The notes under the pieces are model-generated. The model had not been told where the DNA came from, searched no databases, and saw only the letters and a list, made by a program, of their open reading frames with translations. Made by a program: the position numbers and the translations under genes. From a virus, in IMG/VR virus record IMGVR_UViG_3300033149_002395, positions 1 through 22,182 of that record: 22,182 nt of DNA; one strand, given 5' to 3'. The first letter of the stretch is position 1; each line of letters starts with the position of its first letter. Positions 9,699-20,225 of this stretch are shown here, piece after piece.

Positions 9699-9995
9699 AT
9701 GCTTGAAACATTGACAGCATACGCAACCGCCAAAGTCATGGCTTATGTCGGCGGATCAATCGCCGCTTTCGTTGTTGCCTGGATTTTAAAAAAGATCCCG
9801 AATGAGAAAATCAAGATTGCAGTTGGGAAAGTGATGTATTCTGCGGGGGTAGCGGTCACTTTGGGGCTGTCAAAATGGAAAGTAACCGCTGGTTTCTGGA
9901 ATCGGACGATCGAGCCTTTTATCGTGGACTTGATTGATAATGTTGTGGCCCACGGGATGAAAGAGTTTATTCGCGGATTGCGTTCAGATTCTTAG
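9699..9995 (+). CDS. Small membrane protein, holin candidate
   Basis: This 98-residue protein starts two bases after the previous stop. It has a hydrophobic segment at about residues 11-30 (VMAYVGGSIAAFVVAWI), a short charged turn with KKIPNEK, and a second hydrophobic segment near 42-58. An amphipathic C-terminal region with R and K residues follows. Length, two potential membrane helices and position at the end of the late operon fit a class II-like holin, which would permeabilise the cytoplasmic membrane and release a lysis enzyme. It could also be another small tail or membrane accessory protein. It is the last gene before the terminator. Confidence 0.62.
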   Translation: MLETLTAYATAKVMAYVGGSIAAFVVAWILKKIPNEKIKIAVGKVMYSAGVAVTLGLSKWKVTAGFWNRTIEPFIVDLIDNVVAHGMKEFIRGLRSDS

Positions 9996-10218
9996 CATTT
10001 ACCCTGATTATGTCGATTTCAATCTCTTCATCGACATAATCAGGGTTTTTTATAAATTTAGGTTTCCAAAACTGCCAACATCTACGATCTGGGTTTTTGA
10101 TTGTTTCAGGTTGAAAAATATTTAAAAAATTAGGGCTTGGCGGAAAAGCAATTTTTCCGTCTTCGAAAAGACCAAACATCCGTTTTGAATATGTATCACT
10201 TAAATTAGTATTTACCAT
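9967..10218 (-). CDS. Unknown 83-residue protein, last gene of the minus-strand cassette
   Basis: I do not recognise this protein. It is supported by translation signals: its ATG (10218) sits inside the end of the lipoprotein gene and is preceded by GGGGAGG seven bases upstream, a strong ribosome binding site. It is aromatic-rich (FGLFEDGKIAFPPSP, CWQFWKPKF) and contains two similar segments, IKNPDRR and IKNPDYV, about 17 residues apart. The C-terminus is acidic then basic. No signal peptide or membrane helix is seen. Its 3' end lies under the late terminator and overlaps the membrane-protein gene by 29 bases, so the two operons are convergent and share sequence. Confidence 0.72.
   Translation of the reverse strand: MVNTNLSDTYSKRMFGLFEDGKIAFPPSPNFLNIFQPETIKNPDRRCWQFWKPKFIKNPDYVDEEIEIDIIRVNAKNLNAIRE
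10001..10051 (+). terminator. Intrinsic terminator of the tail/lysis operon
   Basis: ACCCTGATTATGTCGAT (10001-10017) pairs perfectly with the inverted copy at 10030-10046 across a 12-base loop, and a run of six T (10046-10051) follows. The 17-bp stem plus T-run is a canonical rho-independent terminator for the + strand. Read on the - strand there is no T-run after the stem, so it should be one-directional. It lies inside the 3' part of a convergent coding gene. Confidence 0.9.
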
Positions 10219-11327
10219 TTCACAACCTCCCCATAACCCGCAAAAAACAGTTCAACAATCCCAGTTTCAAGCTCCAATTTCCAAATAGATCCTGATTCAT
10301 TATAATACAGCACCCCGTCAATAATTACCGGATCAAGCACACCCTTTTGAACAAATCCGCTTTCCCGTGTCCCGTCACCCTGATATAATCGGCCGGCCGT
10401 TTCAATCGTGTCAGATTCCGGCAAATACTTGACCAAAAATCCCGCATTGCATTCGATCCAATACAGAGCCGAATCATAAACCCCGGCACCGATTAAAATC
10501 GGAGCTTCAGACAATCCAAATGGATAAACAGTATTCCAATTATATAAAGCATTCGCATTTTCAACCAGATCAGCCCCCAATTCATACCCGTTTTGAGAAT
10601 ACCAAACCCCATCAAAAAACAACCATTCTTTCGCCTGATTAAAATAGTTATGGAACCAGGACACGGAAAAAACAGAATCAGATTCAATCAAGGCCGTTCT
10701 CCCGATAGGATCAAAATTATAAATCAGCAGTTTGTCTGCATGATTAATATTTTCAATCTCAGTATTCAGCGGGTGGGCTGATCCGTTTCGATCAATGGCA
10801 ACATAATCCCCAGATACCGTCCGGACAAGATCAGAGCAAAACCATTGATTGAGATACCACTTTCCGACCTCAACACCCTGAAAAAATACTTTTGTGTAAT
10901 CTTTTGGGAGTCCCCCGAGGGCGTAGGCCGTGGCCGGATCAATCCGCACAATTGACCAATCATCAATAATCAGATCAGGTGTCCCAACCGTTTTTTGTTC
11001 GACGACTTCCCCGTATTCATCATATTTCACGGCCTTTTCGCCATCCAAAAAACAACGATCACCGCACTTTTTGGGGGCGATGTTTTCCTGTGCTTTCAAT
11101 TCTCCATCATAAAAATAGAGTTTCCCGTATGAAATGACAGAAAACAGAACAGGCAATGCGCCCGGCTCTGTGAGTTCTTCAGGTTCAATCGGCTGTTCCT
11201 TGGGAGGTTCAGGGGGACTTTCCGGCACAGTCACAGGTGCTTGAATGGTTGCGTCTGATCTTTGAGGCTCTGGAGCATCGGAACACCCAACAATAAACAT
11301 CATTAATATAATGATTAGATTTTTCAT
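10212..11327 (-). CDS. Secreted lipoprotein with beta-propeller-like repeats
   Basis: The 371-residue protein begins MKNLIIILMMFIVGC, a lipoprotein signal with lipobox I/V-V-G-C and mature Cys15, so it should be lipid-anchored outside the cytoplasmic membrane. A Pro/Glu-rich linker (about 18-57) follows, then a domain of repeated short motifs with aromatic pairs (GKLYFYDGELKAQ, EWLFFDGVWYSQNG, SALYWIECNAGF, GVLYYNESGSIWKLELETG) suggesting a beta-propeller. A KKCGDRC pair and further Cys residues may form disulfides. The ATG has AGGGGA upstream. It is the central gene of a three-gene minus-strand cassette and is a candidate for changing the lysogen surface or excluding other phages; that role is not shown by the sequence. 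Confidence 0.78.
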   Translation of the reverse strand: MKNLIIILMMFIVGCSDAPEPQRSDATIQAPVTVPESPPEPPKEQPIEPEELTEPGALPVLFSVISYGKLYFYDGELKAQENIAPKKCGDRCFLDGEKAVKYDEYGEVVEQKTVGTPDLIIDDWSIVRIDPATAYALGGLPKDYTKVFFQGVEVGKWYLNQWFCSDLVRTVSGDYVAIDRNGSAHPLNTEIENINHADKLLIYNFDPIGRTALIESDSVFSVSWFHNYFNQAKEWLFFDGVWYSQNGYELGADLVENANALYNWNTVYPFGLSEAPILIGAGVYDSALYWIECNAGFLVKYLPESDTIETAGRLYQGDGTRESGFVQKGVLDPVIIDGVLYYNESGSIWKLELETGIVELFFAGYGEVVKW

Positions 11328-11494
11328 AATATCCCCTTGTTTTTTTCATTAAACTCCTTAAAAGCCAAATCAGAAACCTGACTTTTATCAAGCCCTTTAA
11401 TCTGGCCAATTGCTTTTAGTTTTAACCACTCAACCCGATCAACCATAATGAAAATCTTGGTTCGGGCGCTTGATGTGTCATATTTCTTTTTCAT
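11324..11494 (-). CDS. Small ribbon-helix-helix-like protein, probable cassette regulator
   Basis: A 56-residue ORF, easily missed because of its size, begins at ATG 11494 behind an excellent ribosome binding site (AAGGAGAAT). It reads MKKKYDTSSARTKIFIMV… and shows the layout of a ribbon-helix-helix DNA-binding protein: a short strand (TKIFIMV, about 13-18), a helix (VEWLKLKAIGQIKGL), and a second helix (DKSQVSDLAFKEFNEKN). Its TGA overlaps the lipoprotein ATG as ATGA, so it heads the cassette operon. RHH proteins usually bind inverted repeats near their own promoters, and autoregulation is therefore likely. The fold is inferred from pattern only. Confidence 0.7.
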   Translation of the reverse strand: MKKKYDTSSARTKIFIMVDRVEWLKLKAIGQIKGLDKSQVSDLAFKEFNEKNKGIL

Positions 11495-15690: not shown

Positions 15691-15894
15691 ATGAAAAATT
15701 TATTTGTATCATATAGCCATAAAACAGGCTATGGAAACGCTGTGCTTGAGGCTGTCGAGGACGATATAACAATTGATGGTATTGCAGATCTTAGAAAAAT
15801 ACGTGAAAAAATATGCAATATTGAGCCACATGATAGCCACATTTCCCTCAGCAGCCTTATTATTTTAAACTTTAAATGGTTGCCCCATAAATGA
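15691..15894 (+). CDS. Small conserved phage protein of unknown function
   Basis: This 67-residue protein follows GAGGAG and begins MKNLFVSYSHKTGYGNAVLE. Small phage proteins with the FVSY…GxGN…I…I….ILNF pattern recur in recombination/replication regions of many phages, but none has a known role to my knowledge. The FVSYSH start resembles a TIR domain only superficially; at 67 residues it cannot be a complete one. It ends in a stop overlapping the next gene's ATG by four bases, linking it to the nuclease candidate. Confidence 0.7.
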   Translation: MKNLFVSYSHKTGYGNAVLEAVEDDITIDGIADLRKIREKICNIEPHDSHISLSSLIILNFKWLPHK

Positions 15895-16586
15895 ATATAA
15901 AAACAATAGCGTCAAGTTCAAGTGGATGCAGTTACATCGTTGAAAGTGGGGGCTACCAATTAATAATCGATTGCGGAATACCACTCAAAAAAATCAGATC
16001 CGCACTTGATCACGATCTATCAAAAGTCGTCGGCTGTATCGTGAGTCATTCTCACGGAGACCACGCGAAATATCTTCCACAACTCGAAAAAGAAACAACG
16101 ATCCCTATTTTTTGCACTGCCGGGACCAAGGAAAAGTTTGGGCTGAAAACGGCAACGGTTTGGAATCCAGAAGGCGGTTTATATAATATTGCTTTTCAGT
16201 TCTATATAAAACCGGTTCCACTTGTTCACGATGTTGAGAATTGCGGGTTTATTATTTTGGCAGGAGAAAGTCCGAATGTTAAGCGGTTATTATACGCAAC
16301 AGACACCGGAGAACTAAACTATACAATCCCAGGACTCACCCATTTAATGATCGAGGCAAACTACAGCTTCGACCTCCTAGTAAAATCAACCTCAGACAAA
16401 TCAATGATAAAACGGGTACAGGAAACACATCTTGATATTGACCAGGCCGTGGAATTCGTAAAACGTCACCCGGATCTTGAGGAGATCCATTTAATTCATT
16501 TGTCCGATAATAATTCGGATGAAAAACTTTTTAAACGAATGGTACAGGATGTATGTGGTATTCCTGTTCATATAGCGGGGAAATAA
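15891..16586 (+). CDS. Metallo-beta-lactamase-fold hydrolase, exonuclease candidate
   Basis: This 231-residue protein has the MBL-fold active site: SHSHGDH at residues 52-58 (His53, His55, Asp57, His58), His113 in LVHDVENCG, Asp138 in YATDTGEL, and His203 in LIHLSDNN. The N-terminus ASSSSGCSYIVESGG resembles the YycJ/phage MBL group, which contains DNA exonucleases. Its place after recT and the Rad50-like ATPase suggests it is the exonuclease that generates single-stranded DNA for annealing, replacing RecE or lambda Exo. The fold is clear; DNA as substrate is inferred from context. The ATG overlaps the previous stop, and its TAA overlaps the next ATG (TAATG). Confidence 0.85.
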   Translation: MNIKTIASSSSGCSYIVESGGYQLIIDCGIPLKKIRSALDHDLSKVVGCIVSHSHGDHAKYLPQLEKETTIPIFCTAGTKEKFGLKTATVWNPEGGLYNIAFQFYIKPVPLVHDVENCGFIILAGESPNVKRLLYATDTGELNYTIPGLTHLMIEANYSFDLLVKSTSDKSMIKRVQETHLDIDQAVEFVKRHPDLEEIHLIHLSDNNSDEKLFKRMVQDVCGIPVHIAGK

Positions 16587-18114: not shown

Positions 18115-18963
18115 ATGCAAAATGGAGAATGGATACCTGTTAGTAAATATTTTCTTGATAGCCTCCCAAGGAACCGAAAATTCACTGAACTTGAAGCTAT
18201 GTATTCAATGACTATCGATTATGATAATGGACGGAAAATAACCGTTTCCGGTTATTCTAGATTGTGGGGGTGGTCAAGGAGTAAGGTCACAAAGTTTATT
18301 GATTCTATGGGCGTTCTAGTCGAGTATGACGAAAAGACAGGGAAAAAACAGAATCAAAAAGGACAGATCAAAAGACAGATAAAGGACAGAAAAGAGACAG
18401 ATAAAGGACAGAAAAGATTTATTGATTCCAAATGGTTAAAGAAAACAAAAGACAGATCAGGGACAGATAAAGGACAGATAAAGGACAGATCAAAAAGCAC
18501 TACTATAGATCCTATTATAATCCTTAATCCTGAACCTAAAAAGAAAGAGCTACTTTCTCCCCTTAAAAACCGGGAAGAATTTCTCTCAAATATTCCTGAA
18601 AAACTTTATTCTGATTTTCCTGATTTTTCAAAACAAGAAGTAGAAAACATTCTGGATGACTTGATTGATTATTGTTCAGCAAGCGGGAAGACGTATAAAA
18701 ATTATTATTCGGCACTTCGCAACTTTTTAAAATCTGACCGCAAATCAAGCCCCGGTAAAAAAGCACCAACTGGAAACAAACTTGATTTCAAAACATATCA
18801 AGATGCTTTTAGCTATGCTGATAGTCACAGGGTAAATGGGGATGCTCCAAAATTCAAAGAGGACGCTTTAAACAAGGTTTTAAAAAAGCATCCTGGCATG
18901 TTTGAATACCAAAGAGACTCAGATTTTTTCAAATTAACTTACAAAACCTATTTAAAGCTATGA
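18115..18963 (+). CDS. Replication initiator, winged-helix type
   Basis: The 282-residue protein has an N-terminal region (about 5-75) resembling a winged helix, with WIPVSKYFLDSLPRNRKFTELEAMYSM and WGWSRSKVTKFIDSMGVLVEY. A low-complexity, basic Lys/Asp/Gln-rich linker follows (about 80-128), then a helical C-terminal part. It overlaps the DnaB-like helicase gene as ATGA. Phage initiators such as lambda O bind iterons lying in their own gene and recruit helicase; the linker here is encoded by an 11-bp repeat array. That arrangement, and the helicase following, make an origin-binding initiator/helicase loader the best call. Exact family is uncertain because linker and C-terminus are divergent. 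Confidence 0.75.
   Translation: MQNGEWIPVSKYFLDSLPRNRKFTELEAMYSMTIDYDNGRKITVSGYSRLWGWSRSKVTKFIDSMGVLVEYDEKTGKKQNQKGQIKRQIKDRKETDKGQKRFIDSKWLKKTKDRSGTDKGQIKDRSKSTTIDPIIILNPEPKKKELLSPLKNREEFLSNIPEKLYSDFPDFSKQEVENILDDLIDYCSASGKTYKNYYSALRNFLKSDRKSSPGKKAPTGNKLDFKTYQDAFSYADSHRVNGDAPKFKEDALNKVLKKHPGMFEYQRDSDFFKLTYKTYLKL
18362..18494 (+). repeat. 11-bp iteron array, candidate replication origin
   Basis: GACAG begins at 18362, 18374, 18385, 18396, 18407, 18451, 18462, 18473 and 18484. Most copies read GACAGATAAAG or GACAGAAAAGA, and nearly every interval is 11 bases. A gap of 44 bases (4 x 11) in the middle keeps the phase. 18374-18395 and 18396-18417 are exact 22-bp tandem copies. An 11-bp phase is not a codon multiple, so it is better explained by protein binding on one DNA face than by the protein. 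AT-rich sequence follows. Confidence 0.75.
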
Positions 18964-20225
18964 ATAACATACCAAATGATCACGAATCAGAACAAGCCAT
19001 ACTTGGGGCTATCTTTTATAACAATCATCATTTAACGGTCGTTTTAAGTATTATTAAAAACCACCAGTTTTTTTATGAGAAACCACATCAATATATTTTT
19101 ATGGCGATCACTGAATTACATGATCAAAAAACGGCTATTGATGAACTGTTGGTGCTGGAAAAATTAAAATCACTCGGTCAAGTTGATGTGGTTGGTGGGA
19201 TGTCTTACTTGATGCAGTTGACCGATTGTGTCCCGTCATCCGGTAACGTGGCGCACTACTGCAAAATAGTTGCAGAAAAACATTATTGCCGAATGCTTTT
19301 AAAGATCTCAAATGAAACCGCAGATGATATAAACCAAATGGCAAAATCATCTGATGCTATTGACCAGGCGATTGAAAAACTCATCAAATTAAGAGCCTCC
19401 CTGTCGAACTCCGCCAAGGCGATCAGCGTTTTTGACGCAATGCCGGAGATAATAAGTAATATCGAACTCACATCCGAAGGGAAAATAAAACCAGGGTTGC
19501 CGACAGGCTACGGAGAGTTTGACCGAATGCTCGGAGGCGGAGCGCACAAAGGGGATTTGATTTTTATCGGAGCGGAACCATCGACAGGCAAAACAAGTTT
19601 GGGGGTTTGCCTTAGTTACGCTCTGACAGCTGGTAGTTTTAAAGGCGTTATTTTTTCAATCGAATCCTCAAAAGAATCAATTATCAGGGACCGGTTAATC
19701 CCTGCAGCAATCAACATCAATTCCCACAAATTGAGAAACGGGAATTTGAACGCTGATAAATGGGATGAACTCCATCAATTAGCCGGTCAAAATCATTTAA
19801 AAGATTTGAAAATCTGTGATGATTCATCGATAAACATAAATGATATTTACTCGATTGTCAGCATGGAACACCGGACGAAAGGGATTGATTATATCTTGAT
19901 TGACTATGTTCAATTGATTTCTCCTGTATCAAACTCTGGGAATCGAAATAATGATCTTGGGGAAATTGCCAGGGGATTAAAAAGGATTAACAAAGATTTT
20001 GATATTCCAATCATTGTTTTATCGCAGCTCAACGAAAAAGGAAAATTGAGAGACAGCGGGGAACTAAATCAAATCGCGGATGTTGAAATAATCCTCAAAA
20101 AGAACGATGACGGGATGGAAAACATTATTGATTGCGATTTTAGAAAGAACCGAAACGGGATAAAAGGCAGTATTTTTATGGAGTTTATCCCCGAATATAC
20201 AAAATTCTTACCGGCGGAGAGATGA
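18960..20225 (+). CDS. dnaB: DnaB-family replicative helicase
   Basis: This 421-residue protein has the DnaB layout. The N-terminal domain begins NDHESEQAILGAIFYNNHH and runs to about 130. A linker helix comes next, then the RecA-like ATPase with GLPTGYGEFDRMLGGG, Walker A GAEPSTGKTS (residues 204-213), VIFSIESSKESII, and Walker B YILIDYVQLI (about 311-320). Further on are IARGLKRINKDFDIPIIVLSQLN and a C-terminal DCDFRKNRNGIKG arginine-finger region. It unwinds DNA 5'-3' at phage forks as a hexamer. It is slightly short for DnaB (often 450 or more), mainly in the C-terminus. It overlaps the initiator stop and the next gene start by ATGA, so expression is coupled. Confidence 0.92.
   Translation: MNNIPNDHESEQAILGAIFYNNHHLTVVLSIIKNHQFFYEKPHQYIFMAITELHDQKTAIDELLVLEKLKSLGQVDVVGGMSYLMQLTDCVPSSGNVAHYCKIVAEKHYCRMLLKISNETADDINQMAKSSDAIDQAIEKLIKLRASLSNSAKAISVFDAMPEIISNIELTSEGKIKPGLPTGYGEFDRMLGGGAHKGDLIFIGAEPSTGKTSLGVCLSYALTAGSFKGVIFSIESSKESIIRDRLIPAAININSHKLRNGNLNADKWDELHQLAGQNHLKDLKICDDSSININDIYSIVSMEHRTKGIDYILIDYVQLISPVSNSGNRNNDLGEIARGLKRINKDFDIPIIVLSQLNEKGKLRDSGELNQIADVEIILKKNDDGMENIIDCDFRKNRNGIKGSIFMEFIPEYTKFLPAER

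Follow-up and report, generated by a model that had tools for sequence, protein, structure and literature searches.

An array of 11-bp direct iterons within a phage initiator gene, adjacent to dnaB, is a probable origin of replication

The window, i.e., the entire stretch of viral DNA analysed here (a virus record of 22.2 kb), carries tail genes, RecT, an SbcC-like gene, a DnaB helicase and RusA. The start of the helicase gene at 18960 overlaps the stop codon of the initiator ORF (18115-18963). An array of short direct repeats lies inside the initiator gene and is followed by a tract with T at every third base (Table 1). Rfam and tRNA scans of the window gave no matches, and a DNA-level search of a phage collection found none. 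GC skew across the window tracks gene direction and contains no origin signal. The window is a fragment, and the phage may possess a second origin elsewhere. Between recT and the initiator gene an ORF with an SHSHGDH motif of the metallo-beta-lactamase type is located (15891-16586). Three further ORFs, one with a lipoprotein-like signal sequence, are on the minus strand at 9967-11494. This stretch separates lysis-side from replication genes, its GC skew is reversed, and it looks like an inserted cargo cassette.

Table 1. Features of the initiator locus (positions in the window).
Feature	Position	Strand	Basis
Initiator gene, 282 aa	18115..18963	+	ORF; AlphaFold2 model; C-terminal similarity
Iteron site 1 (GACAG, 12 bp before site 2)	18362..18366	+	motif positions; homologs
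Iteron block 1, sites 2-5, 11-bp steps, contains the 22-bp duplication	18374..18417	+	motif positions, shuffles
Spacer between blocks, 33 bp, 79% AT, 11-bp phase kept	18418..18450	+	sequence; 44-bp step of homologs
Iteron block 2, sites 6-9, 11-bp steps	18451..18494	+	motif positions, shuffles
Tract with T at every third base (CACTACTATAGATCCT...), proposed opening/loading element	18498..18546	+	sequence; function putative
DnaB-type replicative helicase gene	18960..20225	+	DnaB_C E 6e-48; DnaB N-terminal E 1e-26

Nine copies of GACAG start at 18362, 18374, 18385, 18396, 18407, 18451, 18462, 18473, and 18484 (span 18362-18488). The original prediction had placed all nine at 11-bp intervals. The number is correct and eight copies do share a single 11-bp phase, yet the step from the first to the second site is 12 bp. 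The predicted central gap which keeps the phase was confirmed: 18407 to 18451 is 44 bp, and this step divides the array into two blocks. The predicted exact 22-bp tandem duplication (GACAGATAAAGGACAGAAAAGA) is present as well, at 18374-18395 and 18396-18417. The window has four runs of three GACAG at 11-bp spacing and two runs of four; 100 dinucleotide shuffles yielded no run of three, and no run of four even when two mismatches were allowed. Because the steps rotate the reading frame, the core is translated as QI, DRS, and TD in turn. The core common to the homologs is CAGAT, not GACAG, and two of the nine sites in the window read CAGAA.

The protein around this array is predicted to consist of an N-terminal winged helix (aa 11-88), a disordered linker from aa 86, and a C-terminal domain. 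In the AlphaFold2 model, computed with 19 homologs, helices comprise residues 25-37, 44-51, and 55-65, and a two-stranded wing residues 68-71 and 83-86. Mean pLDDT per block of ten residues is 74-89 between 11 and 70 and lower in the wing; everything from residue 86 onward is below 50. The best matches in structure searches are many generic winged-helix regulators, with phage replication initiators and the N-terminus of lambda GpO among the weaker ones. At the sequence level the N-terminus has no significant match in Pfam, PHROGs, or the sequences of solved structures. The protein has no Pfam match up to E 0.1, which includes the lambda O family (Phage_rep_O), and Phage_rep_org_N (PF09681) gives none. 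Weak similarity (E 0.007-0.04) connects the C-terminal part with proteins of Enterococcus and Acinetobacter phages that are annotated as replication initiators. Among homologs the C-terminal domains vary, and the N-terminus and the array remain together, as expected for a DNA-binding domain which is tied to its own sites. The array is positioned between the DNA-binding and the C-terminal domain and the helicase gene adjoins; both features are those of the lambda O type layout. To this extent the original prediction is borne out: iterons in the linker part of an initiator with a winged helix, its gene located directly ahead of dnaB, lambda-O-like and probably an origin.

Is the repeat preserved as DNA or as peptide? 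Homologs were gathered by protein searches and by a scan for the CAGAT pattern; one of them, L065, belongs to a related prophage in Desulfosarcina cetonica. Four of them (L027, L043, L044, and L047, refetched as L052, L056, L055, and L054) were first found via this pattern, and the perfect cores of L052, L054, L055, and L056 are therefore partly ascertained; for the other homologs, CAGAT throughout the array was no selection criterion. Counted from the first core, the sites of the CAGAT group are at 0, +12, +23, +34, +45, +89, +100, +111, and +122. Third codon positions are conserved to 95-100% in the CAGA core, to 38-50% at unit positions -2, 6, and 7, and to 60% in the gap. Shared ancestry does not explain the contrast between core and neighbours since these are columns of the same sequences. 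The original prediction had named as fatal a peptide that is kept while its synonymous positions drift. The opposite is evident, i.e., the synonymous positions of the core are conserved.

A codon test points in the same direction. The peptide was held fixed and codons were redrawn 2000 times from each gene's own usage. The 11-bp self-match was reached in at most 2 of 2000 draws for 14 of 19 homologs; L068 (18/2000) and L069 (8/2000) are intermediate, and L057, L058, and L066 are weak (108, 144, and 32 of 2000). Periods 10 and 12 show no comparable excess, save a weaker to moderate one at 10 in L060. Coding constraint does not account for the phase, as had been predicted. By these comparisons the repeats appear to be constrained as DNA rather than as peptide, again as in an origin of the lambda O type; selection may have acted on mRNA rather than on DNA. 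Two further loci deserve mention. On the contig of L058, a homologous ORF (L004:332-682) stops after block 1 and lacks block 2 and the C-terminal domain. At L005:2594-2797 a 22-bp, i.e., two-turn, repeat array of about nine copies is located in the linker of an initiator-like gene whose C-terminal stretch is related to that of the window protein and whose N-terminus is different.

In more distant homologs the units have changed, viz. GATACCGGAAT in L059, AAGGACACCCT in L060, GGCGAACAACC in L061, ACCGACAGATC in L062, and GGAACACTAGC in L064. The linker peptides differ, and the 11-bp period persists in all five, least clearly in L060. The 44-bp step between the blocks is exact in L061, L062, L064, and L071. 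In L059 the distance between recognisable sites is 55, which fits one eroded site; the block geometry of L060 is less regular, and the copy number per block varies among homologs. The two blocks are more similar within a genome (0.79) than between genomes (0.67; permutation p 5e-5). By this measure they evolve in concert. New units on an unchanged layout are what one would see if the binding unit changed in concert and the geometry stayed fixed.

These data bear on the possibility that the DNA has no role, the repeats being products of slippage or duplication in a dispensable linker or of selection on peptide or mRNA. The linker is indeed disordered and carries an exact 22-bp duplication. However, single 11-bp slips would shift the frame, the unit is completely replaced among homologs while period and 44-bp step stay, core synonymous positions are conserved next to variable neighbours, and the 11-bp self-match exceeds that of synonymous shuffles. 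We consider such an origin of the repeats improbable.

Immediately behind the array a second element is conserved. In 16 homologs examined, the array is followed by CACTACTATAGATCCTAATCCTAATCC-like sequence, whatever the iteron unit. Where a codon permits a final T, T is used in 131 of 157 cases in the tract and in 588 of 1576 elsewhere in the same genes, a count that omits L068 and L069, which show the tract poorly. The respective Fisher p (2e-29) overstates the evidence because the tract was noticed before testing and its limits were set by eye. The excess of T is large and present in most homologs (L052-L071). With T at every third base, this strand has 5'-TnnT-3' motifs in a ladder as well as CTA triplets, and these adjoin the initiator sites in the arrangement that characterises a DnaD recognition element or DnaA-trios. 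The tract would be the place of strand opening or helicase loading. For the tract, selection at the codon or mRNA level is inseparable from selection on DNA and may be what has preserved it.

Taken together, we consider the array to be the replication origin of the phage, situated within its own initiator gene and bound by that initiator (probability about 0.85). The analysis shows an array conserved as DNA, a fixed layout, two blocks evolving in concert, a predicted winged helix, and dnaB as neighbour. We infer that binding of the initiator, opening of the DNA, loading of the helicase, and the start of replication take place here. The N-terminal winged helix would bind 11-bp units, one per turn of DNA. 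As the units are direct and not palindromic, the subunits would probably be arranged head to tail. They would stack on one face of the DNA with a slow twist (11 versus about 10.5 bp per turn); chances that they form a head-to-tail filament on the array are roughly even. With nine subunits bound, in two blocks at a fixed distance of four turns, the DNA may then be strained and open beside the array; the triplet-T tract and the AT-rich spacer are the likeliest places. Subsequently, the C-terminal domain would recruit the phage DnaB helicase which is encoded next door.

Could the array instead be an operator by which the winged-helix protein represses or times its own operon, initiator plus dnaB, and have nothing to do with the start of replication? 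Many repressors contain winged helices, generic regulators are the best structural matches, and the array is upstream of dnaB in the same direction. Yet the sites are in the middle of a gene, far behind any promoter of the initiator, and a fixed two-block geometry plus a conserved tract exceed what an operator needs. Moreover, the comparable in-gene arrays of Tuc2009, TP901-1, and lambda are origins. An operator is therefore unlikely, to about the same degree as repeats without a role. Most improbable of all is a partition centromere like parC or tubC, with the winged-helix protein bound as a filament: the 11-bp repeats in parC of plasmid R1, the partner of ParR, do form two clusters, and TubR, a winged-helix protein, sits on short direct repeats, but no ParM- or TubZ-like motor gene was seen among the ORFs scanned (a subset, in a fragment), the C-terminal part is common to annotated replication initiators, and the gene adjoins dnaB.

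The original prediction regarded an 11-bp period as unusual, and this is not supported. Exact 11-bp arrays exist in rep of Tuc2009, in ORF11 of r1t, in a Pseudomonas phage gene ahead of dnaC, and in most 11-bp GAACA loci fetched, where they are in linkers of other winged-helix-like initiators. In Tuc2009 rep, a gene annotated 'contains origin of replication', four CAACC cores have exact 11-bp steps; no other such four-fold run occurs in the 38 kb examined at steps of 8 to 23 bp, and in the codon test period 11 is favoured (z 3.9). ORF11 of r1t has four copies of GGAACC at exact 11-bp steps. In Pseudomonas phage KLEP17-4, units of the GAACAGCAGGT type recur at 11 bp in gp72, a gene annotated as hypothetical, and dnaC comes next. 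The sequences of TP901-1, 80alpha, and lambda that were checked have no 11-bp array, nor do phi11 orf20 and the annotated A2 origin. With the spacing present in some phage initiators and absent in others, it constitutes one recurrent design, neither unique nor universal.

Viral contigs were scanned for four GAACA cores at 11-bp steps, and 80 loci were fetched among the matches listed. In 64 of these 80 a sense ORF of 120 aa or more contains the array; a simple pattern detects a wing-like motif just upstream in 49 of these 64 ORFs, again among the matches listed, and by eye several further ones are initiator-like and a few clearly not. These initiators differ from the window protein; where they have matches at all, these are weak, below-cut-off ones to winged-helix families or Phage_rep_org_N. 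DnaB is encoded near the array in L267 and L251, and the record of L273 has it at another place. Scans with CAGAT returned 46 loci at 11 bp, 37 at 10 bp, and at least 120 at 12 bp. The 10- and 12-bp controls alone do not single out 11, since coding DNA often contains 12-bp repeats and any period can arise by tandem duplication. The informative point is where the arrays lie. In 2.4 Mb of fetched viral DNA a strict threshold yielded no further strong 11-bp array outside the masked matches.

L007, L042, L045, and most of L229-L308 have out-of-frame arrays of 11-bp period in the linkers of winged-helix-like phage initiators other than that of the window; the peptides are of the NNKRTTNEQQMNTNKN type. 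Other 11-bp repeats are not covered by a clear sense ORF: L014, L016, L023, L034, L046, and L051 (CAGATGGATTT), L031 and L039 (CAGATTATTTA / CAGATTATTCA), and L265 and L276 (AACAGTTACCG). Perhaps these are operators or iterons of other elements.

A bolder generalisation is offered tentatively, and we would sooner expect it to fail than to hold. A common, unrecognised architecture of phage origins might consist of direct iterons one turn (11 bp) apart, placed in the linker of an initiator with a winged helix and followed by an opening tract of short repeats. Units and initiators would change freely; the period, the in-phase blocks, and the order of binding domain, iterons, tract, and loading domain would be kept. 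This would imply a head-to-tail filament which opens the adjacent triplet tract much as DnaA does. If true, origins of many uncultured phages could be read from sequence alone, the search rule being an out-of-frame 11-bp array within a winged-helix gene near dnaB or dnaC. It would also provide a natural series of joint changes in initiator and binding unit, with the same fold and spacing and different units, and would connect phage origins in a testable way to the triplet-based unwinding elements of bacterial oriC. The possible general 11-bp rule across phages is the most interesting part; no report of one was found in the literature covered, which was mostly outside subscription journals.

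A phage origin inside the initiator gene is of a well-known kind. In TP901-1 and Tuc2009 the ori consists of direct repeats in the initiator gene, to which the initiator binds (PMC8965321). Origins in initiator genes are also known from 80alpha and SPP1, and 80alpha ORF20 is not complemented in trans, suggesting an embedded ori (PMC5499656). Closest to the window are Tuc2009 (Rep2009) and r1t (ORF11), with an array embedded in the initiator gene and exact 11-bp steps; unlike the window, they have four copies in a single block, different initiators, and other repeats downstream. TP901-1 REP and 80alpha ORF20 have the ori within the initiator gene, as is proposed here, and share a CTACTAA / TACTACTAAT tract soon after their repeats, similar to the tract of the window, whereas their repeat steps are near 15 bp instead of 11. 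In lambda O, too, iterons followed by an AT-rich tract are situated in the middle of the initiator gene, each iteron being an inverted repeat (PMC7466680). Lambda has four such 18-bp iterons at steps of 20-24 bp in contrast to direct units of 11 bp, and it employs the P loader whereas the phage of the window has its own dnaB. RepB, the initiator of plasmid pMV158, binds 11-bp direct repeats (PMC4753449), yet it is a different protein which nicks DNA, and the repeats are not described within its gene. In the unwinding region of B. subtilis oriC, initiator sites are located beside CTA triplets and 5'-TnnT-3' motifs (PMC10201434). These DnaA-trios and the DnaD recognition element resemble the phage locus in that a triplet tract adjoins initiator sites; the bacterial tract is bound by DnaA and DnaD, whereas the likeness of the phage tract is one of sequence. 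To these systems the window adds an initiator family for which Pfam has no model, the division of the array into two blocks at a fixed step of four turns, and a triplet-T tract that is conserved.
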